Source: Bolinopsis microptera
Lineage: Eukaryota > Ctenophora > Tentaculata > Lobata > Bolinopsidae
DNA length: 64,000 nucleotides
Assembly (NCBI RefSeq): GCF_026151205.1
Contig: NC_087082.1
Coordinates: forward strand, 15,657,365-15,721,364
Direction: 5' to 3'
The first letter of the stretch is position 1; the number at the start of each line of letters is the position of its first letter. Positions 5,770 to 64,000 of this stretch are shown in pieces. A program made the position numbers and the translations under genes. Below the pieces are notes generated by a model. That model saw only the letters and a program-made list of their open reading frames with translations, searched no databases and was not told the origin of the DNA.

Positions 5770-8700
5770 CTACCCTCTGTGGTATTTGGTAGATTCTCGT
5801 CCGTTGAGTGGCTGGATTTCTCTCCAGTTACGTGTCATAGCAGGCATGTCTCCGTGTCCTAGGTGGATAAATGGTAAAGGTAATATTCAGTTTTGTTGAA
5901 TTAAAACCTATGTTGGGCTTGGCTGGTATGTGTAAGGTTTAGTTTAATCGCTAGTTAGATAATATCTGAAACATCAATGATGATTTTTCATAACAAGACG
6001 TATAGTATCTAAAACTCTCACCAAGTGACATCTTCCTCAGCTGCTTCAGCTGACGTTTGGATATAGTCAGGGGTTTCCTTACAATGACCCAGTGAACTAC
6101 CTCGCTGCATGGAGGTGTTGTCAGTCCACCCATGTATGTCTTCCAGATGTCTGTAAAGGGAATCTAATGTTAATTGATAATAATTTTAATACTTTCAACA
6201 CTACTATATAACAAATAATTTGAGGCTCTAGCGATGTAATAAACGAAGTTTCCAAGCCAAATTTGTGTGTTTCCCTTCGTGTCCAAAATCAATAATTGAT
6301 ATCCATATTCTTTGATCTAGTTGTGCGGATGAAATGAGTAAACTTGAGTATCTTAGCTTTATAAGGCATGCCCGACGCCCGTGCAACTCAGTTGCCAGTT
6401 TTTAGGTGGCTTAAAGTGGCTTCTGACATTATGTTAAGCACGCACCAAACTGGTAACTGTAAGTTGTAAGTGTAACGTTTCTAAGCTGATTTTCCGAAAT
6501 AAACAGTAGATTTGGATTCATATGTTTAAGAGACAAAAATCAGAACTGTATGAAGAAACGCACCTGAGTTTGCTGGGTAGAGAGCGCTCAGGTCGAAGGA
6601 GTCTATTTTCCTGTCCTCATTCTCCTTCTTAGCCCCCTCTATCATCAGTTCGACTAGTGCGTTTGCTTTTCCCGCCTTAAACACTCTATCAAAATAGAGT
6701 TGGTTTAAAAATGTGGATCCTAATTCGGTTCATATCACAATTAAAAATATTTTAAAGTTTAGAAGGGTCATGGTATCTAATATATCTGAACGACTGAAGT
6801 CACCAAACAACTGAAAAACCAATAAAACTTACCGAGCGAAGACCATGTACTTTGTACTCCCATCAGAATCAGTGTAGCTGGTTACAAGATGTGCCTCCGC
6901 AGCGAAAGCTTTTCCTCCTATCAAGTGTTCAGATCCTCGAGCAGCTGAGTCCCCCCAGTGAAGATGGAGCTGCATGAGGGTTACCTCTCGGTTTTCCATC
7001 CAAGGTACTTGGGCGACGGTTTGATCGGGATTTACGGAGTATTTTACTGTGTTCGCGTTGTTCAAATTCGTCTGGAAAGTTGAGAGTGATAATTGAGTTG
7101 TTTGTTTGATATTTGTTTGAAATATTTCGACTGTTTTTATTTCGTGAAGAATGTAAACCAGTTAGACCTTATTGAGTGATTGTAGATCACAGTGCTGGCA
7201 AGCATGATCGTGCTTCTTATATTCACTATACTATTTAGTATTTACCCCCTTTACTATTTACCCCTTTAATATTTACCTCCTTTACTATTTAACCCTTTAA
7301 TATTTACCTCCTTTACTATGTACCCCATTTACTATTCACCCCCTATAATAGTAATAATATTTACCCCCTTTACTATTTACCCCTTTACTATTTACCCCCT
7401 TTACTTTTATACCGCTTTACTAGTATACCCCCTATATTCTATAATACTGTTATACCCCTTTATTGTTTTTCAGGCATTAAGACTCATTGAAAGTAGTTCA
7501 GCAGGCATATTTTAAGTTCAAAACATTCTAATTGAATGTCAAAGATGACAGGAATTAAAAATAGTTATGCGGAGATTTTTAAGAATTTTGCATAAAATAC
7601 GCGCCAACAAAGTTATACAAAATTCGGTAAAAAACCCAAAATCACCATATTAAGGTGCCTCAAAAGTGTAAAAGATAAAGCCATTTCCGACCAGAGGTCT
7701 TAAACTTTAAAGATAATTGTTTACACAATAGTTTACATTATATGAAAAAAGATTTGACGTCATTATCACCTTTTGATGACGTCATCAATTTTAGCGTCTT
7801 TAGAACTTGATTTTTGACAAAGTCGATTTTACAGCATAGCCATAAAGGAGTTATTTTTATTCAAAATTTGAGGTCATATTGAAGTTAGATAATTGTTCAA
7901 GCATTCTGAAAATATACCGGAAAGTTTGCCTAGCTTGCTCGTGCTCCTTCATCAAGATATTTGTCATTGAAGTTAGTGCTTTTTTGAAGAATTATTTATA
8001 AAAACGTCAATTTTGCGATTTAGTATTCTCTGGTGTTGAACCATGCATTGAGTGTTGGAGCTCAGTTCTGCTTCCTATAGGTATAAATTGTGCATTAGGC
8101 TAGTTTTAAAGTTGAAAATCGAAAAGTTGCACACGTAAGGACACGCCCAAATTGATAGAAAATTGCTAAAATCACTGAAAATTGCTGTTTTCACCATTTT
8201 CTGACAACTTCGGAGTGCCTTTGAAAGTTTGCACGTGCGAAAGTTGAGAATTTTGCTCATTTGTGATTTTGAACAAATTCTGCTTTGCCACGACAGTTCC
8301 ATGTCATTATATATGAATTTAATGCCAACTTGAATGAATATAATGTGGCATGTTCAGTCAGTGATCGACCGATATGCTTACCTATACACAAGGAAATGTT
8401 TTTAAAGGAAAAATTTAGAAATCGTTGAAACTACCCCCTTATTAATAAAGATATCAGTTTATATTTCGACATAATATTAAGTACTCTGACATTATAATCA
8501 AAAAGAGATGATATTTGACCAAAACCCATAATTATGGGTAGAGTGGACCGCTGCCAGTGCCTCTCTTTCTCAAACAAAAGGAAATGATATCAATTTGATC
8601 TCGACCGATTTCATTTTCGTATCATTTTGCATTTGCAGACGGTCAATCAAATAAATATCATTTCCTTTTGTTTGGCAAAGAGAGACACTGGCAGCGGTCC

Positions 8701-13684: not shown

Positions 13685-14277
13685 TTTACTAGGTATTGTA
13701 GTGAATAAATAAGACAATAAAATGAACATCAAGTAACTTTATGTTGCCTCGATTGAAACAAAATGGAAACGTCTGGCTACAAGTTCGACGTATAAATTCG
13801 ATCACATATTGAATACAAATAAGACGAGCAGGACACTCCCTTGAAAGACAGCTTTATCACCTCACTTGTAATGAAGATCGTATTTGTAAACGAAGAATAG
13901 AAGACTGATTGGTCAGTGACCTGGAATATAAACTACAAAAATGTTCGATATTTACAATGATTTCGATTTTCTCCGACTCTTGCTGGATGGACTAATTCCG
14001 TGCTAAGTGGTTACCATAGCAGTTATTTGATATCGAATAGGAGCTGATCGTGTTAGACACTATATCTACACTACACCGCGTAAACACTATAATAGTTGAT
14101 CTGTTGCAAAGGGCTAAGATGAGAAGACCCATTGCAATTGCAACTGTGATTCATTTTACGCGATAAGCGGTTGAATACAGCTCGAAACTCACATTACCAC
14201 AAAATTCGACGTGAGCACTGAAAAACTACACTAAATTCGCGAATACCAAAACACGTGCTTATTTGGGAAAAAATAAG

Positions 14278-15270
14278 AGGCACGGTATATCGAGGTACCC
14301 GGTATAGAGAGGCCCGGTTTATCGAGGTACCCGGTATAGAGAGGCCCGGTTTATCGAGGTACCCGGTATACAGAGGCACGGTTTATCGAGGTACCCGGTA
14401 TAGAGAGGCACGGTATATCGAGGTACCCGGTATACAGAGGCACGGTTTATCGAGGTACCCGGTATAGAGAGGCCCGGTTTATCGAGGTACCCGGTATAGA
14501 GAGGCCCGGTATATCGAGGTACCCGGTATAGAGAGGCCCGGTTTATCGAGGTACCCGGTATAGAGAGGCCCGGTATATCGAGGTACCCGGTATAGAGAGG
14601 CCCGGTTTATCGAGGTACCCGGTATAGAGAGGCCCGGTTTATCGAGGTACCCGGTATACAGAGGCACGGTATATCGAGGTACCCGGTATAGAGAGGCACG
14701 GTATATCGAGGTACCCGGTATAGAGAGGCCCGGTTTATCGAGGTACCCGGTATAGAGAGGCCCGGTTTATCGAGGTACCCGGTATAGAGAGGCCCGGTAT
14801 ATCGAGGTACCCGGTATAGAGAGGCCCGGTATATCGAGGTACCCGGTTTAGAGAGGCCCGGTATATCGAGGTACCCGGTATAGAGAGGCCCGGTTTATCG
14901 AGGTACCCGGTATAGAGAGGCCCGGTATATCGAGGTACCCGGTATAGAGAGGCCCGGTATATCGAGGTACCCGGTATAGAGAGGCCCGGTATATCGAGGT
15001 ACCCGGTATAGAGAGGCCCGGTATATTGAGGTACCCGGTATAGAGAGGCCCGGTATATCGAGGTACCCAGTATAGAGAGGCCCGGTATATCGAGGTACCG
15101 GGTATAGAGAGGCCCGGTATATTGAGGTACCCGGTATAGAGAGGCCCGGTTTATCGAGGTACCCGGTATAGAAAGGCCCGGTATAGAGAGGCCCGGTATA
15201 TCGAGGTACCCGGTATAGAGAGGCCCGGTTTATCGAGGTACCCGGTATAGAGAGGCCCGGTATATCGAGG
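14278..15270. repeat. 32-bp minisatellite, about 31 copies
   Basis: A nearly uninterrupted array with unit core TATCGAGGTACCCGGTATAG then AGAGGCCCGG. Variant units carry TTTATCG for TATATCG, or TACAGAGGCAC for TAGAGAGGCCC, and one partial unit lies near 15175-15195. Units remain above about 90% identical, so the array is recently homogenised. As 32 is not a multiple of three, the array is open in several frames on both strands; those ORFs are artefacts. Confidence 0.95.
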
Positions 15271-23292: not shown

Positions 23293-26200
23293 TTACACCG
23301 GACTGGGCGCACCATTACATTTACCGTTACGAACTTTGTTTCGCTGCAGCTCCATCTGGAAGTATCTATGGTATTTATTGTCCGACTTCTCAACGAGGAG
23401 AGCCCATCTGCCCTTGATAGAATCCCAGACTCTGCCCAACATCCTGCCTTTGATCCTCACGAAGTAGATGAGAGGGAAGATGCTGGAGTTGAAGGTACTG
23501 AGGACTGTGGTACTGACCAGATACACGTAGAGATACACGTGCCAGCTCTTGTGGTTGTAGTCGATAATAGGGCTGGCCAGCTCCAACTCGAAAGTGATGA
23601 GACTGTAGAGCCACAGGATCATGTAAGGACCGTAACTGATGATAAATGCGAGGGTGATTATGGTGATGGTGATGCTCGCTCGCCGGGAACTGTCCGTGTC
23701 ACGAAGCTGGGACATCTGCCGAGAGGGTCTGGCGTGGAGCTCGTCCGCGTGAGACATAGCCATAGATCGGGGACTTGGCGGCACTAGCGTCACAGAGATC
23801 TTCCTCAACCAGAACTGGGAGTTCTCCCGCAGTAGGTTTATTGATGCGGACTTGGCAGAAGTACTGTTAGATTCCCGGGAGTTTTCCCGTTTGGGATCGT
23901 GGGAGTTTTCCCGGGAGACGGAGAGGCGGGATGTTGAGGTACTGGCAGATCTGCTGTGTTCTCTGAGTCGCTCGTTAACCGTCATGTGCTCGTTATTTGT
24001 GACTGATGTCCTCTGAAAATCACGATTCATGTTAGACAAATACTGATGGTTTAACTGGTTGACCAGCAGAAATTGGGAATATTCAATATTAAGAATGTCG
24101 AGCAAAGCAATATCTAGAAGCTCATATTAAAGTTAGACACGATACTGAATATCATGCTAGTTACCCGCAAAAGTATAACCACTTAATGATTTTAGGAATG
24201 TCTACTGTCTAGGATCGCAATTTAACAAATACTGAAAACTCATATTAAAACAAGTTGTTATTAACCTGAAACTGCTCCTGTTCTCGGGTGTTATTCCTGA
24301 GTTTAAGGACGACAAGAGAACAGCAAACCACAGTGACCAGGAATGGGATGGTGATGGACATGTTGATGAACAGTTTGATAAGCTTGGGGTAAGAGTACTG
24401 GTTGTAGTCTATCAGCATGTAGAAGGCTCCAACTGCTTTGTAGTACTGAAATGTTTGGGTTAGATGAGTGCAGGGAGACTGGAATATGTAATATTTATCA
24501 GCTGAGACAATTGCTATTATTTGCAATGCCAGCCGTTCATACTACGATATGTATTAGTAAAAATCTACCCGAAATAATTCGGGATGGTACTTATTGTTAA
24601 AATTTAGCCTGGTCCTGGCCACATAGCTAAAAATAAATACATGTTAAGTATTAACACTGGTGCTACTTACCACGAAGTGGAAGTTGTCGTAGAAAGGAAG
24701 AGCGGAGATAAGTACGGGAATAGTCCAGGAGACAAAGCTAAGTATCAAAGCCTTGTTGATCGTCATTATTCTCCTACTGCTGAACACGTAGTACACACCA
24801 ATAAACCTGAACAAATTTTATATTATACAAATCAGTGTTGTCAATATTTCATACGAAATTTTCCTAAATTTCACTTCAGATATGAAGATATCACAATTCA
24901 CGACAATATCTGGACTGTTACACAACTAAAAGTAACCCAACCAACTATCCATAATAAAATAGATAAGTCTGGTCAATGTTATATCGGATAGCAACGCGTG
25001 GATAAGTTATTTTCTACACTTTCTACGTACCGAATGAAGCAGAGGTTGGAGGTGAGGTAGATTGAGAGGAGGGGAAGGAGGGTGGACAAATACCCGATGA
25101 TATCACAAAACACTGTGAAGGCTTGCTGGTTCTCTATCCCAAACTCCCTTCCTTTCACCTGTCAAAGTAGGCCGTAAAATGGTGTATGTTGTACTTAAAG
25201 ATACTGTTTCAAGTGCAAAGTTATTACTCTGTTATTGTTAATTCATGGTTTGGACTCTAGAACTAGAACTTGAATTTTTAAAAGGCCTATAGACTATAGT
25301 GGTTGCAATGTCATGACGTTTCGTTGACTCGGAATTTTGTGAATGTAATCACGTTTGCTCAGGATTGCATCTATTTTGTGAAAGTAATCACGCTTGCGCA
25401 GGATTGCATCTATTTTGAGGGATGACCTTAGAAGCAATTATGTAACCTTTTAAAACTTATTTAGGTACTGCGTGAAAAGGTATTGCTAGAACGAAAAGAC
25501 GCGGTTTCACGTAAGCATAACAGTCTGCACCAAGGTACGATCAAAATTTAGCTTTTATCTGACAGAGTGACAGGTTGAGTGCAAGAGTCTGCTTTTATTG
25601 CTCAACATCAAACAGGTGGTGACTACTGACTACGATCTATCAAATTCTTTGTTTCACTAAGCTCATTTAACTTTGAGAATAGACAATTTTCACAATATTT
25701 TGAAAGGTATTGAGTGTGCTCAGACCTAAATTCCTAGCATGAATTGTATCATGAAAAGTGCACTCACCAAAGCGTAGCTGACGACAGGGGCCTGGATGGA
25801 GCACCCTATCAGGTCAATGACACATAACTGTAACATAATGATAGAGGTAGGGTTGAACTTCTTTTTGAGGAACTTCATCACAATTACCACCAGCATCATG
25901 AAGTTAAATACCGTCCTGCGAAGGAAAGAATCGTTAACTCACTTGAATTGAATTTAAAATACGGTATTGCCACTTTTGAACCAGATCTTTTAAAATTTGC
26001 AATGATCGCTTCATCAGGATTCTAATATCGACTTCGCTTCACACTTACTTAACCCAAAATCTAAATTTGGATATGTACCCAAACTGTAAAACCTAAAGAG
26101 AAAATACAAACTTTCACTGAAAACCGGTACATACCCGACAATGCAAATGAAGAAGTAGATGCGGTACATACCCGACAATGCAAATGAAGAAGTAGATGTA

Positions 26201-26340
26201 ACCGGTACATACCCGACAATGCAAATGAAGAAGTAGATGTAACCGATAACTGTATCTGCACTACTACTGAAATATGGACCAGTTGGAATGGTGGAGTTAC
26301 TTTTTACCTCCCTGTCTTCTGTTCCATTTGATGTAACCAT
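23293..26340 (-). CDS. Rhodopsin-class seven-transmembrane GPCR (479 aa)
   Basis: Cell-surface receptor; ligand unknown. Exons (minus): 26213..26340, 25768..25915, 25031..25158, 24671..24806, 24266..24445, 23293..24012; phases 2,0,2,0,0 all agree. N-terminus with two N-glycosylation sequons (NGT, NST); TM1 about 31-54 formed across the first intron (FFICIVG + TVFNFMML); TM2 68-89; TM3 104-128; TM4 150-171 with Trp; TM5 202-226; a Ser/Arg-rich third intracellular loop of about 125 residues with several RENS repeats; TM6 353-379 (ISYGPYMILWLY); TM7 396-425 with NSSIFPLIY in place of NPxxY. The DRY motif is not present: the equivalent is near LCFIRFIG. The C-tail is short and basic. A CAG acceptor lies one base before the ATG. 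The first donor is part of a triplicated segment. Subfamily not recognised. Confidence 0.85.
25331..25421. repeat. Two tandem copies of a 46-bp unit
   Basis: Core words GTAATCACG and CAGGATTGCATCTATTTTG repeat once, in a GPCR intron. Confidence 0.75.
26129..26244. repeat. Three tandem copies of the GPCR exon 1 splice donor
   Basis: A 37-41 bp unit occurs three times. On the minus strand each carries ATCTACTTCTTCATTTGCAT, then TGTCGG|GTATGTACC. Donor ends are at 26213, 26172 and 26135. The first gives the standard transcript. The third adds 78 nt (26 codons) and stays in frame; the second adds 41 nt and breaks the frame. Confidence 0.9.
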
Positions 26341-29300
26341 TCTGTTTGTAGTATCTACAATATTTTAGAGTTTATGATCAAAAGAGCAAAGTTGGTGAGC
26401 AAATATTAGACTATCGGGTATAAATATCCCAATATAATAAATTGAATTTTAGTTTAATTCTTGCTGATTAAAACTTGCTTATTAGACCATTTTAATCCCA
26501 GAACTATAGCAGGTAGAAGCAGGTAGAAGCAGAGAAGCTACCCCTTATAAATAATATGGTTTAAACTGGTGAGTGGGAACAATATAAAATGTTAGACAGT
26601 GCTCTTATACTAGCTTGTTAATCTTCCCTCACGTGACATTTGTCAACCAATTACAGAGGCTGAGAGACCTGCAATAGTTTATTGAACCTATTAGCCTTCT
26701 TTTAGTTCACGCACTACTGGTTACATACAATGTACAAATCTACTCCTTTTATAATATAAACTAGGGAAGAGTTTTAATCGCAAAATAAAGAGGACTAGTA
26801 GTACGATCGGAAAAGCAACGTCAGGCGTCAAGCACTGCCCAAATCATAAAAGTCAAGCTATCAAAGATACGTTATGTTAAGATGTCCAGTATATACGGAT
26901 TTAGTGAAGAAAATTGCTTCTTTGATCTCATCTCTTAGCTAGATAATGATAAGTAAAGCTTTGAGGTTTAGTATCCTGTATCCGTTAAATTTTAACATAA
27001 CTAGCTTCATCAACCTAGTCCAGGAAAAAATGTTCAAATTATGTTTTAGTAAGTTCGTTTCCTTTTCTCGCAGTTAGTGTCCTTTTCTCTGGAATAGGTT
27101 GATGAAATCGCCGCTAGAGCACAGAGTCTAAGAGTTAAATGTCTAACAGCAACACTTGTTTCTGTCTAGTTCTAATGTACCGTCACAATAGTGACTTTAA
27201 ATATATTAGAGGCCCTGCTAACAATCTAAACTTCGATAACAAAAATTTGTTAACTTTGTTAAGAGGCAAGTGTATCAGTCTAATAAATGGGGATCTGGCA
27301 TTTACTGATGACTGAAAAATGCAAACCTCGTTTTGTTATGTTAACTTCAATTTGATGTTATGTGGCTATGCAAGCGTATCTATATTCTAAAAAATGCATT
27401 GCGTGTGAAGTACGAGAATCAGTTTTACTGTTTAAGTTTCGCGGTTTGTTAACAAAAGAGGTTTATGTTAAACAAGAAAATAATTAAATAAGAGTGAAAT
27501 TTTAACCAAATAAAACAGAGCAAAATGAAACAAAAACAGAGGTGGTTGGCAAGCAAAGTCAATTATCATATTTTGTGTTTAAATTTCAAAGTTTCTCAAA
27601 ACATATTTCATATTCTAACTTCGTGTGTAGCGCGTGAATAATTTGCAATAAGATCATTCAATTTGCCGGTCAAACAGTTTAAACTCGTAAAATGGTGTCC
27701 AATCTTTAATGCTTTTTTGATTATAATCAAAATATTACAAAGCTATCATAACAGCACATACAAGGAGCAGACCTGCCTTCTTTTCAATCTGGGTGCAAAA
27801 CATTGCTCTAAATAGCCAACTCCTCTCTCTTGTAACTACAAATCAACCAATCAAATCAACTAAAGAGTACTACGTGGGTTGGGGTTTGCAATTGGAAGTG
27901 AGACACATGACAATAGCTGTTACAACTCCCCGTGCAGTTACAATTTTATTGCGACACGTGCTATGGATACCCGCAGTTTGCACGTGCTGTGGATACCCGC
28001 AGTTTGATCAGCTCGTGTGTCAAAACTTCGTACCACAAGTCCACCATGGTCATTGTAGGAAGGCTATGATAATTACCATGTAAAGTAGAACACAAGGCTG
28101 CCTTAATGGATTGAACCTCATAGGCTCCCTAGACAGCTGTCCGCGATATGATCAGTAATTCCGTTCACCGAAATTCAGGAGCTAAATACCAAAACAGGCC
28201 GATACTTCCCCCTTTTTTGGTGCGCTAATTCCTGGTAACCGAGACAGGAAAGAAAAATACCGAAAAACGATTGCACAAAAATCTGACACTTCGTGGCATG
28301 TCAAACCCACAAAAAACCTGAACAACTCTGAATAACCGATTCAATTGTCCTGAAAATGGATTCTTCGTAATTATATCTCAATTCGTATATAAAATGTTGA
28401 TTGTCGGCTCAATTTGTCAAAGCAAATGACGGAAAATCTCATTAAATTCTGGCACGGAAGGCCAACTAAGCGTTCATGTTTAGTAACGCATAGCTGCATT
28501 TGATAATTGAGTATGACTGTTAACACTTTAACACTTGTAATCCTACTCAACGTATCTGCAAACCTCCGAGAGAGGGAGCTAGCTTATATCTGAGAGTCAC
28601 TGACTGTCAAACTAGCAGTCAGAGGCATGAACAGATTTGTAATGAATTATAGTCATAGACGAGATTGAAGATGTATCGAGATATCGTTATTCGTTAGAAT
28701 AAATCAATTTGTCATCCCGTAGAAAATATGTTCGGCAATTTATCAATTTGTCGTCTAAAATTTGTATGGCAATTTATAAATTTATCATTGAAAGTTGATC
28801 TATTTATTGCAAGGAATTAGACACGGATGAATCGTCACAAGCACAGTAAACTGTCGCTCAGACTCATTCCTCCTGATTCAAGTCTCATTTCTGCTATGAA
28901 CAGTACATCACAACTGTGATTGCCGAAACCCAGCCCAACTTTTATGATAACACCTTGCTAGCTTAGTTTGTAACTTTATTCATTATTTAACATTGTTATT
29001 AGTTAATATCACAATGAGATCGTGGGCTGTAGGACTCCCAATTCTCAAGAGAAAGATGAACAGTAGTGGATAACATAATAGTGGATCAAGGATTCCTGAT
29101 TCGCCGAATCATACTTGATACTCATAAGTTTTAATGATCTTAACTAATCTAAGTCTAACATAACTACAAAAAAGTATAAGTATTAGGATGTGCGTAAAAT
29201 CTCAAAGTAATTTTGCAGCGTAACAGCTTAAAAATTAAATAACCAAATTTGCTCTCAGATCTCCACTGATCTCTTTCAAACGATACCCTCTTAGTTTTAC

Positions 29301-47816: not shown

Positions 47817-48884
47817 TACATGTTACATGGCGAGATCTCCATCCAAAAGGATTAGTCTGCGTCATCTGCGTCATTACTTTGTATTATACAACTTCGGCGG
47901 GTAATATTTCTCCATCCTTTTCGATCTGCAGCCAATCTTCTCATACAATCAATCGTGAGTCCATTACGATCCAATCTCTGCTCAGCATCTTCAATAAATA
48001 CATCATTTAAGCTCTTCCTAGGCCTGCCTCTTGATCGTTTCCCATGCTTGGGTTTCCATTCAAGTAGATAGTTAGGTAACCGATCTTCAGGCATTCTACT
48101 GACATGTCCAAACCAACGTAGCCGTTTTGTTGCTATTATGTCAGTAAGAGCAGTTATTGAAGCCCTTCTTAAAACATCTTCATTTCTTACTCGATGGAAC
48201 CACCTCACTCTCAGGATTCTGCGTAAGCAGTACTGATGGAAAGACTCTAATCTTCTTGTCTGCACTTGAGTCGTGTTCCATATCTCACTTCCATAGGTCA
48301 GAATGGTAAGAACAGCTGCGATGTAGATTCGCACTTTGTTGTTAATGCTTATGTTCTTATTCTTCCAAATGTTATTGAGTTGGTTAAAAGCTCCGGTTGC
48401 TTTTCCAATCCTGACACTTATTTCTTTATCGATCTTGCCATCCGATGTAATTTTGGCACCCAAATAAGTGAATTGAGTGACCTGCTTTGCAGAGTTTCCA
48501 TCGACAGTAATATCTATGGTCCTATTCTCTGGGAGTGGGTGCTGCGACGTATCTTTCCCAATTACCATGATCTCTGTTTTCTTTGCGTTCATCTTTAAAC
48601 CCCCAAGCCCACAGTATTTCGCAATATTGTCCGTTGTTTCTTGCAGTCCCTCGACAGTGTCATCCATGCCTGCTATGTCATCAGCATAGTCCAAATCAAT
48701 GACACATTTTTCCGGTTGTCTGGAACTTTGTCTGTACTGAAGAGTAAAACCACGCGATATATTTTTAAACTTCTCGGCAAGTTCTAATCCCCAGTTAAGT
48801 ACAAGGTTGAAAATGGGAGGCCCTTGCACATCACCTTGTCCAGTCCCCGAATCGACATCAAACCATCTTGTCAATTCCCCATTG
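47817..48884 (-). mobile_element. 5'-truncated RTE-like LINE insertion with target duplication
   Basis: An uninterrupted reverse-transcriptase C-terminal reading frame fills the insert: GTGQGDVQGPPIFN, the catalytic LDYADDIAGM box, FTYLGAKI, and the C-terminal RLRWFGHVSRM ... GRPRKSLNDV tail. The 12-mer TAAGTAAGTACA flanks it at 47805-47816 and 48885-48896. The insert is 1068 bp and ends shortly after the stop in repeated GATGACGCA-like codons, as in RTE-type elements with very short 3' UTRs. The endonuclease and first RT motifs are lost by 5' truncation. No stop or frameshift, so the insertion is young. It sits between the CtIP-like gene and the PB1-FW gene. Confidence 0.93.
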
Positions 48885-49051
48885 TAAGTAAGTACACAAA
48901 TATGTCCACATCATAATAATATAACAACACCGGCGCGACAAAATTAGAATTAACTAGAGATCAAAAGATTCAAATAAGATCAGTTAAAAATCATCAATTA
49001 ATAATGAAACAATAATGCGAGTATAATATATGATTTATCAAACATTTAATT

Positions 49052-50260
49052 CTAATCCCCACTGGAGGAAGGCATCTCCTCACTACTCATACAAAACACC
49101 TTGTTACTATTCAGCAGTTTAGGTACAGAAATATCAGCAGGAATATTACCATGACACGCAAGAGAACCACCTTTCTTATCCGTATTTATCTGAACTTTCA
49201 TACTACACAAAGTAATCGCCTCCCTGCCGATAGAGTCCTGCAGTAGCGTCCACTTACTCTCATACATCCCCTCAGCAGAGGGGGCTACAAACTTCACAGA
49301 GAACTCCTGGATATTATCAGTGGAGGAGGTCCACTTGCCCACCCCCGCCCCACCTACAGGATGGATCGTCCCACCTTCATCAACCAGCTCCCAGCAGCTC
49401 TCAACACCCTGTTTCACCACAAGACTCCACACTACCTCCACCTCCGTACCGGGGGTTACTGTTACTATACTGTTCTTACAGGGCCCCAGGATGTACTCCT
49501 TGTCAGGGGGTATTGCTTTAGCTCTCTTGCTGCTACAAACCTGGTTATCTACATCCTCCTCACGGTTAGACTTCCTACTCCCCCTGTCTTGGGACTGGTT
49601 ATCTGGAGCTGGCTCCTGGTTAGTGCTAATTGTCAGGAAACTGGAGTAGAGAGGAAGGGAGGAGGACACCTGGGAAACTTGCGAGGAATGTTGATCTCCG
49701 ATAAACATAGCATCGCAATTATCTAGTACCATATCACCCTGTACCACTTGCAGGTGAGAGTTCACCCCACCCTGTACCACTTGCAGGTGGGAGTTCACAC
49801 CACCTGATTCTGATGAGCAGCCTGATCTCCGCTGAGTTTTATTACAACAACACAGCTTACTGCGGTGTGCCAGATCCCTGATCAGCTCTGGACCGTGTTT
49901 ACTCAGGTAGTTCTGTACAGCTAGTTCCACAGCGGTCTGAAACTTAGGGGATGTCTCGTCAACAACAACCGGCACCCCCGCATTAGCCACACCTGGTCCG
50001 GTGGTAACATTCAGTTGTAGTAACTGCCGTGTGTTAGCACAGGTTTCCTTGATTGTCCTGAAGTGTTCCTCGCTGGCAACCTCTTCGCTGGATCCCAGGT
50101 CACTAAGTGTGTAGAACCAGTTACCGGGAGTGAGTTTAAACTTCTGGGTTACCTCGGAGGTTATCTGCTGCCAGGAGGCACTGTCAGGCAGGTTGAGGTC
50201 ACATTCCTTTCTGCTGTCTATGTAGAGGGTACAGGGTATTGAGCTACCCCAGTGGATCAT
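49052..50260 (-). CDS. PB1 + FW (four-tryptophan) domain protein, NBR1-related (402 aa)
   Basis: Intronless frame. Residues about 8-85 have a PB1/ubiquitin-like pattern (CTLYIDSRKECDLNLP, DSASWQQI, then an acidic loop LGSSEEVASEEHF). Residues about 255-365 resemble the NBR1 central FW domain: VEVVWSLVVKQG, a second Trp in CWELV, and the hallmark VKFVAPSAEGMYESKWTLL. The ZZ finger and UBA domain of NBR1 are absent and the middle is Ser/Gln-rich, with an 11-residue tandem duplication (GGVNSHLQVVQ twice, 49735-49800). Likely role is autophagy-receptor-like or ILRUN-like scaffolding, by domain only. A 3-codon uORF (ATGGCGCTATGA) overlaps the start codon. Unlike its neighbours it has no acceptor close to the ATG, so the first ATG chosen here is less certain. 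Confidence 0.68.
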   Translation of the reverse strand: MIHWGSSIPCTLYIDSRKECDLNLPDSASWQQITSEVTQKFKLTPGNWFYTLSDLGSSEEVASEEHFRTIKETCANTRQLLQLNVTTGPGVANAGVPVVVDETSPKFQTAVELAVQNYLSKHGPELIRDLAHRSKLCCCNKTQRRSGCSSESGGVNSHLQVVQGGVNSHLQVVQGDMVLDNCDAMFIGDQHSSQVSQVSSSLPLYSSFLTISTNQEPAPDNQSQDRGSRKSNREEDVDNQVCSSKRAKAIPPDKEYILGPCKNSIVTVTPGTEVEVVWSLVVKQGVESCWELVDEGGTIHPVGGAGVGKWTSSTDNIQEFSVKFVAPSAEGMYESKWTLLQDSIGREAITLCSMKVQINTDKKGGSLACHGNIPADISVPKLLNSNKVFCMSSEEMPSSSGD

Positions 50261-52935: not shown

Positions 52936-53730
52936 TTTACACAAGTCAAAGTAAATCATAAATTTTTTTCAAAGCTTTCCCATGAACTAAAAGTTCAGTT
53001 AGTTCACTCCAATATTCTCTGTTTCATAGACTACTGCAACTCAGTCTATTATGGTATAACAGAAAAGAATCTTCATAAGCTACAAAAGATACAGAACAAT
53101 GCTGCTAGATTTATCTTTGGTCTTTACGGAAAAAAGATACGTGAACCTATCATGCCTTACCTCAAAAAGCTCCACTTTCTGCCTGTTCGGTTCAGAATTA
53201 AGTTCAAAATATCACTTCTGGTCTTCAAGTGTCTTAATAACATAGCCCCTCAGTACTTACAAGGACACGTCAATCTAAGGGAAGTACGAAGACAAAGTTC
53301 CAGACTAGATGATGACTTTTATTTGTTGAAAGTTCCTCCTGCTCCTCATTTCAGACGAACAGATGCTGCATTTATGTTTTGTGGACCAAAAATTTGGAAT
53401 GAACTACCCTACTCAGTGAGATCATTATCATCTGTAGAATGTTTTAAAAATGCCCTAAAGACGTTTTATTTCCAACTAGCTTTTGATAATATTTCTAATA
53501 TTTGTCCATAATGTCTGAACTGATATGAAAGTGCATAATTTTAGTAACTTCATACAAATATTTGTTCATAAATTCTGAACTGTTTAAAAAGTCCATAATC
53601 TTGCTATTTCAACACTAAGTCTCGCTTGAATGACTTTAATGTACATCTTTGTTGGGTATATTTTAATGTCGAAGCGTGTAATAAATGTTAGAATTTATTT
53701 ATTTATTTATAAATAAAATATCTCAAAAGC
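52936..53730 (+). mobile_element. CR1/L2-like LINE 3' end
   Basis: A plus-strand open frame to 53511 gives the C-terminus of a CR1/L2-group reverse transcriptase: IDYCNSVYYGI, LHKLQKIQNNAARFIFGL, LKKLHFLPVRFRIKFKISLL, then CGPKIWNELPYSVR and FKNALKTFYF, all standard late landmarks. The following 200 bp resemble a 3' UTR and end in a TTTA microsatellite (53695-53712). It is 5'-truncated; the retained frame has no stop. Confidence 0.85.
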
Positions 53731-57980: not shown

Positions 57981-59084
57981 GTCCAAACAGACCCCAAACA
58001 CTAACAGTCCCCCCTCCCCTAATAAGCTTAAGGTATAACATTACAGCGAATCTTCCGGGCTGATCCAATTATGACGCTACTTAAATGCAGCTATAACATA
58101 TTACACAGTAATGAGAGAGAGAGAGAGCAAGCCCCGTAACTCTTGCCGTTCTGCTCAAGCAATTTTATGTAACATTTGTGGTACAAAACCATCAATTAAA
58201 CCACTTACCACCGGCCGATTTAAAAAAAAATTTCCTATGGGCTTCATCAGAGTTTTGTCGGCACTATACCGAAAAAACCAGTCCCGTAACTATTACCGTT
58301 TTTTTTGTATAACTGTTTGGAAATTACACACAGACACACACACAGACACACACACAGACACACACACATTCTGGTGTTATTAAGTTGATATTAGTCAGTC
58401 TCCTCATATTACCAGAGAGGTCCAGGCAAGGCGAGCAGAAAGAAAAAATACAATTGGAAAAGGACAAAAAATTTCAAGTAAAGATGAGGGACCGGGTCAA
58501 CAAAGCAACGCAAGAAACAAATCATGTTCTGAAACTCTGTAATCCGGAAATTAAGGCTACCTACCTGGAAATTAAGTAATTAAAAAATTAATTAAATTAA
58601 TAATTCCTACCTGGAAATTAAGTAATCTAAAAAGTAATTAATTAAGACTATCTACCTTGTAACATGCACTTGTAGCCGGCTCATCTGAATGATCCACACA
58701 ATCACAATAGTCATCATTAAAATACTGCAACGGTAGAACACGGTCTTTATCACATACAATGACACTGCCATTGATGACATCATAAGGTTTCAGCTGGCCT
58801 GTATGGAACTTCAAAAGTTTTGCTTGCACTTCAGTAAATTCAAGTTTCGGTTTTAGATCACCTGATTTCTTTTTATTTACTTCCTCTTCTTTTTCATTTT
58901 CTTCTGATTCAGGTACCTTCTTGGCAGGGATAATTTGTTTCTCTGTAGGATGGGAGTTGTCATGCTGGTGAGGAACTGCATTGGTAAGGGTCAGTAACTG
59001 GTCATTGTTTAGCGTAAAGAACACCACTACTTGACATACTATAAAAAGTGATATTCCTATCAATACCTTCATTTTTTTCCTCAT
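57417..59084 (-). CDS. Short membrane-anchored glucosidase II beta N-domain protein (191 aa)
   Basis: Exon 1 58656..59084 and exon 2 57417..57563, GT-AG, phase 0. Residues 6-24 form a hydrophobic signal anchor or signal peptide (KVLIGISLFIVCQVVVFF), then an acidic/lysine linker (55-75), then the GluII-beta N-terminal module: VINGSVIVCDKD, FNDDYCDCVDHSDEPATSAC (122-141), then VNDGYCDCCDGSDEW (166-180), the paired LDLa-like Ca-binding repeats, ending with a Cys soon after. In PRKCSH this module binds the catalytic alpha subunit in the ER; here the Glu-rich middle, MRH lectin domain and HDEL retention signal are missing. It may be an ER or Golgi relative rather than the true subunit. An AG acceptor lies one base before the ATG. 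Only 365 bp separate it from TRMT10 upstream. Confidence 0.83.
57600..58380. repeat. Probable dispersed repeat with GA/CT and CA microsatellites
   Basis: In the intron of the GluII-beta-like gene. Begins with GTAACCCGGCCTACGGCCGGG (a 7-bp-arm hairpin CCCGGCC/GGCCGGG), holds a (CT)n run at 57941-57977, (GA)n at 58111-58127, two AACTNTTNCCGTT-like blocks and a (CACAGACA)n run at 58328-58371. Non-coding; element type unknown. Confidence 0.4.
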
Positions 59085-59449
59085 TCTGGTCCATGATTCA
59101 GTAATGATGACAGCTATAACTCTACAAGCTTCTCGGCATCCACGATCTGGTATTCTTCATTGGCATTCTTTACATTTCATCAAAGCTTGCCTAAAAACAT
59201 GGTAGTTACTGACTTACGAAGTGATAGATCAATTATTCAAATAAATTTACAATTTCAAGAAGAGGAATGGTACACGTTGCATTAAAATTGAGCTATCATG
59301 AATTTGCTGCCGATTTATCTAAATAAGTGCTCCAAAAATACCTGCCTTATGATATTTTCAGTTCAACCTCAATAAAACACATAATCTAAGAGAACATAAA
59401 ATATCAATGTTGTTCTGCCTCGAATAACTTATAATAAATAAAATAAAAA

Positions 59450-60418
59450 CTAAGACTCAGCCTTAACAGCATCATCTATTTTCAGAGCTTCAGTTTCTTC
59501 TGATTTAGCTTTATCATCTAAACTTTTAAGACCTTTTCTTTCTGGCACAGTCTTCTCAATAGCACTGGTCCAGCTGTTGCTGACACAAAAATTGGAAATA
59601 ATTTCAAAAACATGACAAACAGTAAGCACTTTTCGGGTTGATATTGTAAAGAACTGGTCGATTGGTAGTCTAGCATGCTGGAAACCAGCAGCTTGGGCGC
59701 GCTCATACGCAAGTCCCTTGTGAGCATTATGATCAACAAATCCTCCGATTACATAGGTTTTACTATCATCAAACGTTGATAACAAATTTTCTGACTCAGC
59801 ACAAAGGTACACCACATTTGAAGGCTCAAACAATTCAATTAAACTCTCACTTTTAAGATTGATATCCCAGTTTTTGTAGCCGTCAACACAGCCCATTCTT
59901 TCAAGAGTTTTCCCCTGCATGTTTGTGAGGTGTAACTGTAAAGGGTTGTCCATGTGCCTGTTCATTGCGTAAATTCTTTGGATTTGTTTGCTTAGTTTAA
60001 CGATATCCTTTTCCGTCATTAAATCATCAAAACTGCAATCTACAGCAACACGTAATTTGTTGTTACTGTCACATAGTTTGTTACCCTTACGACGCTTGGG
60101 CGCAGATGCAGGGTTGTTGGCTTTCTTTCTTTTCAATTTTTCTCGTTCAATTTTTCTTCTGATAGGTTTGAAGAAATCGAATTTTAGAGTTTTGAGCAGC
60201 TTCTTTTTACCATTTTTGGTCATATCATCTGGAAATTCATACTGATCTTTGAATACATTAAATTCTTCTTGTACTTTCTTGTACATAGCATCAAGTTCCT
60301 CGGTTGTACAAATAGTGGGTGCAGTGTTGGGTCTATTCTTCTCAGTTACTTCACCACTTGTAACTTCTTCCAGCCCCTCCTCGTCAGATAGTGGCTCTTC
60401 TGTGCCTCTTTTAGTCAT
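59450..60418 (-). CDS. TRMT10: tRNA (guanine-9-N1) methyltransferase, TRMT10 family (322 aa)
   Basis: Transfers methyl from SAM to N1 of purine 9 in tRNA. Single exon. The N-terminal acidic tail is followed by a Lys/Arg-rich tRNA-binding stretch (71-114), then the SPOUT domain: RVAVDCSFDDLMTEKDI (123-139), SKQIQRIYAMNR, the trefoil-knot block VIGGFVDHNAHKG (223-235) with Asp229 in the catalytic position, QHARLPI (247-253), RKVLTVCHVFEII and PERKG near 292-296. Length matches nuclear/cytosolic TRMT10A/B, not the longer mitochondrial TRMT10C. A TTTTGCAG acceptor ends one base before the ATG. The downstream gene follows after 365 bp and DPH3 precedes after 474 bp, all on one strand. Confidence 0.93.
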   Translation of the reverse strand: MTKRGTEEPLSDEEGLEEVTSGEVTEKNRPNTAPTICTTEELDAMYKKVQEEFNVFKDQYEFPDDMTKNGKKKLLKTLKFDFFKPIRRKIEREKLKRKKANNPASAPKRRKGNKLCDSNNKLRVAVDCSFDDLMTEKDIVKLSKQIQRIYAMNRHMDNPLQLHLTNMQGKTLERMGCVDGYKNWDINLKSESLIELFEPSNVVYLCAESENLLSTFDDSKTYVIGGFVDHNAHKGLAYERAQAAGFQHARLPIDQFFTISTRKVLTVCHVFEIISNFCVSNSWTSAIEKTVPERKGLKSLDDKAKSEETEALKIDDAVKAES

Positions 60419-60892
60419 CCTGCAAAACAGTGCAATAATTAATCACTGAAGTATCCAGGTATACTGCTAACCGCTTATTGTTACTAATTGTGTACAACTT
60501 AGTATTTATTATGCTGCAATGTTCATTACAAATGCAATGATTTATCAAATGTTCAGAGGTAGATGAAATTCATTTCTCCTAATAAAATTCTAGTCATTTA
60601 TTATCAAAATGCCTATGATACGTTTTTTAAAACTAAAATATTTAATAGCAAATCACAGAAATACCCTATGTAACACAAGTTACAACCCCTTTAAAAGTTC
60701 AAAAGTTTGATTTAAAAATACAAATAAAATAAATAAAAGTTTTCTAAAATAATTCACAGTGCTCCATGATAAAGCAAATCACTATTCCAAACATAAAAAA
60801 GAATAAATAACTCTTTGAGATTTTGAATACTTTTATAACATGGTAGGATCACAAATTATCTTTAAAAGATAATACTGGGTAAAGCTTAAAAG

Positions 60893-61861: not shown

Positions 61862-63490
61862 TTGAGGACTGAAGAGTACTGAAGAGTACTGAAGAGTACT
61901 GAGGAGGATGGCTGAGAAGGATGGCTGAGGAGGATGGCTGAGGAGGATGACTGAGGAGGATAACTGAGGAGGATGACTGAGAGGGAGGAGAAGGATCAGG
62001 AAGACCCAGGAGGAGGAGGACCCAGAAGGAGGACCTAGGAGGAGGAGGAGGAGAACTGAGGAGGATGACTCAGGAGGAGGAGGACTCAGGAGGAGGACTG
62101 AGGAGGACTGAGAAGGAGGAGGACTGAGGAGGATGGCTGAGGAGGATGGCTGAGGAGGATGACTGAGAGGGAGGAGGAGGAGGAAGAGGAGGAAGAGGAG
62201 GAAGAGGGCTGAGGAGGAGGAGGAGAAGGACTGAGGAGGAGAAGGAGGACCCAGGAGGAGGAGGACCCAGGAGGAGGACCCAGGAGGAGGACCCAGGAGG
62301 AGGACCCAGGAAAAGGCCCCAGGAGGAGGAGGACTGGGGAGGAGGAGAACTGTTGAGGACTGATGAGGAGGACTGAGGACGAGGAGGAGGAGTAGGAGGA
62401 GGACTGAGGAGGGGAGGAGGAAGAGGACTGGGGAGGATCAGGAAGACCCAGGAGGACCCAGGAGGAGGAGGAGGACCCAGGAGGAGGAGGAGGAGGACTG
62501 AGGAGGACTGAGGAGGAGGACTGACGATGACTGAGAAGGAGGAGGACTGAGGAGTACTGAGGAGGATGGCTGAGGAGGATGGCTGGGGAGGATGGCTGAG
62601 GAGGATGACTGAGGAGGATGAATGAGATGGAGGAGGAGGAGGACTCAGGAGGAGGACTCAGAAGGAAGAGGAGGAGGACTCAGGAGGAGGACTCAGGAGG
62701 AGGACTTAGGAGAAATGAGAAGGAGGACTGAGGAGAACTGAGGAGGAGGAGGAGGAGGACTGAATAGGAGGAGGAGAAGGAGGGGGACTGGGAGAGGACT
62801 GGGGAGGAGGAGGACTGATGAGAAGGATGAGGAGGAGGACCCAGGAGGAGGAGGACTGAGGACCGAGGAGGAAGAGGAGGAGGATGAAGAGGAGGAGGAG
62901 GACCCAGGAGGAGGAGGACTGAGGAGGAGGACTGAGGAGGACTGAGGAGGATGGCTGAGGAAGATGACTGAGAGGGAAGAGGAGGAGGAGGAGGAGGAGG
63001 ACTCAGGAGGAGGAGGAGGACTGAGGAGGACTGAGAAGGAGGAGGAGGAGGAGGAGGACTGAATAGGAGGAGGAGGGGGACTGGGGGAGGACTGAGGAGG
63101 AGGATGGAGGACTGAGGAGAAGGATGAGGAGGAGGACTGAGGACTGAGGAGGAAGAGGAGGAGGATGAAGAGGAGGAGGAGGACCCAGGAGGAGGACTGA
63201 GGAGGAGGATGGAGGACTGAGGAGAAGGATGAGGAGGAGGACTGAGGACTGAGGAGGAAGAGGAGGAGGATGAAGAGGAGGAGGAGGACCCAGGAGGAGG
63301 ACCCAGAAGGAGGACTCAGGAGGAGGAGGAGGACTGGGGAGGAGAAGGACTGTTGAGGACTGATGAGGAGAACTGAGGACGAGGAGGAGGAGTAGGGAGG
63401 AGGACTGAGGAGGGGAGGAGGAAGAGGACTGAGGAAGATCAGGAAGACCCAGGGGGAGGAGGAGGAAGAGTAGGAGGAGGAAGCATCTAA
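61862..63490 (+). repeat. Polypurine GGA/GACTGA satellite
   Basis: Over 1.6 kb in which one strand is almost all purine: GAGGAGGA mixed with GACTGAGGA, GACCCAGGA, GACTCAGGA and GATGGCTGA units. Higher-order copies exist: a block of about 107 bp (near 63096) repeats at about 63203, and about 62390-63000 reappears from 63601. The Leu/Ser/Pro-rich minus-strand frame at 63003-63503 is an artefact. Confidence 0.95.
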
Positions 63491-63600
63491 ATGTTATTTC
63501 CATTTTTGTCCGTTTTTGTCCATTTTTGTCCGCTCTATTTTTTTGATCCCCCTATAACAGCAAAAATTGAACATTTTATTTGGCAATTTAGGTGTCCATT
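63491..63600. other. Non-satellite island with TTTTTGTCC repeats
   Basis: About 110 bp of different sequence inside the satellite, with three TTTTTGTCCG/A words and TTTTTTTGATCCCC, the same words as in the inverted-repeat element at 56929..57047. It may be an end of a related element. Confidence 0.5.
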
Positions 63601-64000
63601 AGTAGGAGGAGGACTGAGGAGGGGAGGAGGAAGAGGACTGGAGAGGATCAGGAAGACCCAGGAGGACCCAGGAGGAGGAGGAGGAGGAGGACCCAGGAGG
63701 AGGAGGAGGACTGAGGAGGACTGAGGAGGAGGACTGACGATGACTGAGAAGGAGGAGGACTGAGGAGTACTGAGGAGGATGGCTGAGGAGGATGGCTGGG
63801 GAGGATGGCTGAGGAGGATGACTGAGGAGGATGAATGAGAGGGAGGAGGAGGAGGACTCAGGAGGAGGACTCAGAAGGAAGAGGAGGAGGACTCAGGAGG
63901 AGGACTCAGGAGGAGGACTCAGGAGGAGGACTTAGGAGAAATGAGAAGGAGGACTGAGGAGAACTGAGGAGGAGGAGGAGGAGGAGGACTGAATAGGAGG
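63601..64000 (+). repeat. Polypurine satellite, second block (runs off the window)
   Basis: Repeats the order of units seen from about 62391, offset 1210-1212 bp, with few changes, including the rare words CTGACGATGACTGAGAAGG and GAGTACTGAGG. So the satellite has a 1.21-kb higher-order period. Confidence 0.93.

Follow-up and report, generated by a model that had tools for sequence, protein, structure and literature searches.

The window, by which we mean the whole stretch of 64,000 nucleotides of Bolinopsis microptera DNA that was analysed, holds on its minus strand a gene for a rhodopsin-type (class A) GPCR, and at the first donor of this gene the end of exon 1 and the start of intron 1 stand in three tandem copies. 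The exon boundaries were set by eye from the sequence, with the open frame as a check, and the features are arranged as follows.

23293-26340, minus strand: receptor gene, from the start ATG (26340) to its end (23293), six exons and five introns
26213-26340, minus strand: exon 1 as closed by donor 1, 128 nt, ATG at 26340
25916-26212, minus strand: intron 1 as opened by donor 1 (297 nt); 256 nt with donor 2 and 219 nt with donor 3
25768-25915, minus strand: exon 2, acceptor at 25915, finishes TM1 (TVFN...)
25031-25158, minus strand: exon 3, in the joined open frame
24671-24806, minus strand: exon 4, in the joined open frame
24266-24445, minus strand: exon 5, in the joined open frame
23293-24012, minus strand: exon 6, encodes the final two helices (TM6 and TM7 as judged by eye) and carries the stop codon
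26126-26244, minus strand: the whole repeat array, 119 nt, three tandem copies
26204-26244, minus strand: repeat copy 1, 41 nt, with donor 1 (exon end 26213)
26163-26203, minus strand: repeat copy 2, 41 nt, with donor 2 (exon end 26172), frame shift
26126-26162, minus strand: repeat copy 3, 37 nt, with donor 3 (exon end 26135), in frame

Elsewhere the window carries minus-strand matches to a tRNA (guanine-1)-methyltransferase (59450-60442, E 1.2e-29), to a eukaryotic-type carbonic anhydrase (6829-7161, E 1.3e-13) and, below the cut-off, to glucosidase II beta (58638-59156, E 1.5e-07), as well as a reverse transcriptase fragment of a mobile element (47852-48910, RVT_1, E 2.4e-08). Judged by eye, 52936-53511 is a possible second LINE remnant (no Pfam match at E up to 1) and 2055-2390 a possible piece of a mariner-type transposase. 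Other tandem repeats include a satellite-like array of about 29 copies of 32 bp that are 95% alike (14276-15217), a very purine-biased, AGG-rich block at 62008-64000 (GC skew of 0.67 over 62001-64000), and a 33-bp duplication at 49735-49804 that repeats 11 codons (GVNSHLQVVQG twice) inside a long open frame of the minus strand, which weakly matches the NBR1 Ig-like domain (E 0.0011, below the cut-off). The receptor gene has another short tandem duplication in its intron 2 (25334-25417, period 39, 2.2 copies, 93% match). The window gave no Rfam match at the gathering score and no tRNA.

The receptor gene and its triplicated donor

Joined through donor 1, the six exons form 479 open codons with GT..AG at all five introns, and the introns other than intron 1 measure 224, 225, 253 and 609 nt; the open frame of exon 1 (26014-26364) starts after a stop codon upstream of the ATG. 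The sole Pfam family over its cut-off is 7tm_1 (E 3e-18, 66.7 bits against a cut-off of 30.5), which matches residues 50-423 of the receptor to positions 3-260 of the 260 in the profile, and among solved structures a GPR183 fusion chain is the best relative (E 1.2e-10). The TM1 of GPR183 aligns to that of the receptor (FIIGLVGN to CIVGTVFN) without a gap across the joint of exons 1 and 2, which splits CIVGTVFN, and the asparagine of the exon 2 TVFN aligns to what we take to be the conserved TM1 asparagine. Given the open six-exon frame, the 7tm_1 match and the gapless TM1 alignment, the gene looks intact and ordinary when read through donor 1. A hydropathy scan of the receptor (cut 1.6) returned 11 peaks, some of them split and none at the expected TM7, a profile from which the segments are not cleanly counted. 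A tblastn search of the window with the receptor protein (E up to 1) found no paralogue, its seven rows being the gene's own six exons and one fragment within the repeat (26203-26150), and one scan of viral contigs found no relative (three pattern matches, none confirmed).

The repeat unit consists of GGTTACATCTACTTCTTCATTTGCATTGTCGG, the last 32 nt of the exon, followed by GTATGTACC, the first 9 nt of the intron. Copies 1 and 2 are identical at 41 of 41 nt, copy 3 is the same 41-nt unit less GTTA with no other difference, and every copy carries the donor CGG/GTATGTAC, where the slash marks the exon end. A sequence-only reading of this DNA had described an exon end of 30-odd bases with its GTATGT donor, repeated three times over 26129-26244. 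The three tandem copies and the end at 26244 stand, as do the junctions it gave from 26213, 26172 and 26135 to the acceptor at 25915, whereas the array starts at 26126 and the unit takes in 9 intronic bases beyond its 32 exonic ones, with copy 3 shorter by 4 nt. When the window was searched for the unit with up to 3 mismatches there were 2 matches (copy 3 is undetectable in such a search owing to its 4-nt deletion), and 100 dinucleotide shuffles gave none, so the array is not a chance occurrence.

Origin of the array

Its sequence suggests that the array is probably a recent copying error. The bases CGGTT are present at both edges, on the left in TTATCGGTTA and on the right in GTACCGGTTT, and since this is the expected remnant of a microhomology-mediated event, it points to a tandem duplication through these 5 bases at the donor of exon 1 and intron 1. 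Slippage or unequal exchange would then have raised the count to three copies, and a deletion of 4 nt would have trimmed one of them; it is this order of events that we infer. Near-perfect repeats with a period of 18-100 form 20 arrays in the window, the donor array included, and 12 of the 20 lie before 61.6 kb, where the repeat-rich end of the window begins; the period-33 duplication at 49735-49804 is among them. If we guess that the window holds 30-60 donors, about 0.1-0.2 of such units would be expected to hold a complete donor by chance. A single donor-bearing unit in the window is thus mildly unusual and requires no special cause. Many duplications of this kind are to be expected genome-wide.

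Creation of an intron by the duplication was considered as well. The tandem-duplication model of intron gain requires an AGGT that supplies donor and acceptor alike, so that acceptor AG and donor GT both lie within the unit. By eye the 41-nt unit holds no AG, so no new intron is possible inside the array, and we rejected this origin.

Products and choice of donor

Donor 1 gives the 479-aa receptor, with the normal TM1 that had been read from the sequence. Use of donor 3 inserts 78 nt, or 26 codons in frame with a second IYFFICIVG, for a total of 505 aa by exon joining, and use of donor 2 shifts the frame and meets a stop after 62 codons; both outcomes agree with the sequence-only reading. The donor 2 stop sits in exon 2, with four introns still to follow, and its transcript is for that reason a probable target of decay and not the source of a third protein. 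Donor 3 is in frame because copy 3 is short by 4 nt; two extra units of full length add up to 82 nt, which 3 does not divide. The 26 added residues put YVPVTSTSSFALSGMYR and the second IYFFICIVG ahead of the remaining TM1. TM1 is intact in both forms, with a hydropathy peak of 2.69 in each, and the donor 3 form has an extra upstream hydrophobic stretch whose 19-residue Kyte-Doolittle mean reaches 1.85. This stretch could be part of the N-terminal tail, serve as a signal-like segment, or enter the membrane and upset the topology.

The array sets three donors of equal sequence before one acceptor. From -27 to +10 at the least, all three read the same, and each forms a U1 duplex with a calculated energy of -9.0 kcal/mol; the 4 remaining donors of the gene fall between -5.6 and -10.7. 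With identical donors and equal U1 pairing, donor sequence cannot choose among them, and position together with wider context must decide. The donor sequence GGUAUGUACC is self-complementary and pairs with another copy over ten positions, two of them G.U. In the folding model, over four folded stretches, the mean probability of pairing between donors is 0.10-0.50 for donors 1 and 2, 0.14-0.31 for donors 2 and 3, and 0.0 for donors 1 and 3, and the mean pairing probability per donor is 0.84-0.91, which leaves the three about equally buried. The 181-nt region is no more stable than shuffled versions of itself, of which 39 in 200 fold as well (z -0.88). Folding on this model gives no donor preference, given the equal burial and the unremarkable stability, and RNA structure was rejected as a donor selector.

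Our best explanation is that the donor was triplicated by microhomology-mediated duplication and that donor 3 is favoured and gives the 505-aa receptor, with donor 1 minor and donor 2 decay-prone; taken whole, we put this account at about an even chance. The spliceosome would favour the donor nearest the 3' splice site, which is donor 3, and the predicted product is a 505-aa receptor with a complete TM1 behind an N-terminal segment that is 26 residues longer and partly hydrophobic. The 479-aa receptor from donor 1 would then be a minor product at most, and any transcript spliced at donor 2 would be frame-shifted and prone to decay. Minigenes with duplicated donors, in work by Reed and Maniatis in 1986, reportedly favoured the intron-proximal donor. 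We place donor 3 ahead of donor 1 as the main site because the normally spliced transcript was not found from a human MSH6 haplotype with a duplicated donor (PMC9818763), and with the other readings counted we put its odds as main site at about even. The 219-nt intron that it makes is similar in length to three of the remaining four introns of the gene, which we count in its favour. That donor 3 is open only through the 4-nt deletion we also count for its use, as weak evidence. In a trial of 1-12 nt deletions in the exonic part of copy 3, with the last 9 exonic bases spared, 74 of 210 (about 35%) left donor 3 open, so an in-frame state that would arise this often by accident is suggestive at most. 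The extra hydrophobic stretch might speak against the use of donor 3.

These same observations bear on the other readings. Donor 1 might be used almost always, with copies 2 and 3 as inert intron and the frame of donor 3 a matter of luck. We regard this as unlikely, and it does have the advantage of a receptor with an ordinary N-terminus and TM1, of a deletion trial in which donor 3 is opened by chance in 74 of 210 cases, and of exonic signals that could lie upstream of copy 1 and favour donor 1; against it, copies 2 and 3 bear the same donor, preceded by 27 or more exonic bases that are likewise the same, and the duplicated MSH6 haplotype is a case in which the normal transcript was not found (PMC9818763). 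The equality of the donors would also suit a three-way switch, in which two receptor forms and a truncating form are made in a ratio that splicing factors, RNA structure or repeat number would determine, and the self-complementary donor with its modelled pairing of donors 1 and 2 and of donors 2 and 3, never 1 and 3, would offer it a means. Against this, burial is about the same for all three donors and the fold does not stand out from shuffled sequence, and such a switch appears improbable to us. The copy number could instead be an artefact of assembly or polishing, or of two merged haplotypes, as the identity of copies 1 and 2 might suggest. This is quite improbable, since the 4-nt deletion marks copy 3, which means that two kinds of copy or more must be present in some molecule or haplotype, and since the window has many short tandem repeats with two or three copies.

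With donor 3 preferred, the expected outcome is one or two proteins, not three. The claim of three proteins from one gene was right about three equivalent donors, but it exceeds the evidence in view of the MSH6 precedent and the decay-prone product of donor 2. Copy-number polymorphism of the array is plausible. With a last copy that is 4 nt short, 2 or 5 preceding full copies leave the last donor open and 0, 1, 3 or 4 leave it closed, and because openness depends on the copy count, alleles of different copy number would have sharply different effects should the last donor be the one in use. One could imagine a switch phased by copy number, with the preferred last donor in frame at certain repeat numbers, the deletion kept for restoring the frame of the donor in use, and the new hydrophobic N-terminal segment changing the trafficking of the receptor; we consider this a long shot. 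If the array does vary among individuals, it would offer a natural experiment on the way the spliceosome picks one of several identical donors set apart by position alone, and on the way a gene survives a tandem duplication at the edge of an exon. The alleles of one gene would cover all three frames, and usage could be read from transcript ratios.

Comparison with known systems

Gain of an intron by tandem genomic duplication has been described, for example in a potato RdRp gene (PMC4974935). Both cases are short tandem duplications that bear a splice signal, and the unit of our array lacks the AG that the model needs. In ordinary pairs of alternative 5' splice sites such as that of DOK7 intron 4, as in the array, donors compete for one acceptor and one is in frame and another truncating, but the DOK7 donors are unequal in strength and 11 nt apart, whereas duplication has given the array identical donors at spacings of 41 and 37 nt. 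DOK7 minigenes in which the stronger downstream donor was also placed upstream showed a weakened suppression of the upstream site, so the preference for the downstream donor is not absolute (PMC5585400).

The closest published likeness that we found is to MSH6 c.3936_4001+8dup, a human germline tandem duplication of 74 bp across the exon 9 donor. There too the exon end is duplicated with the first bases of the intron (66 exonic and 8 intronic by its name, 32 and 9 here) and identical donors compete. The transcripts of the duplicated haplotype used the downstream donor or skipped the exon, and none with normal splicing was found; the cloned long transcripts of one carrier were 7:1 for the downstream-donor form over the exon-skipped form. 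The exon-skipped transcript was alone in some carriers and in the saliva of that carrier, with proportions that varied, and the authors note that normal transcripts, if rare, may have escaped detection. In that case, then, use of the upstream donor was not seen and the downstream donor was not always used (PMC9818763). The two cases also differ: MSH6 has two copies and the array three, the MSH6 picture comes from measured splicing and that of the array from DNA sequence, and the receptor exon 1 holds the start codon, so that exon skipping would presumably play out differently. The MSH6 duplication shifts the frame and was judged likely pathogenic, whereas the last donor of the array is in frame.
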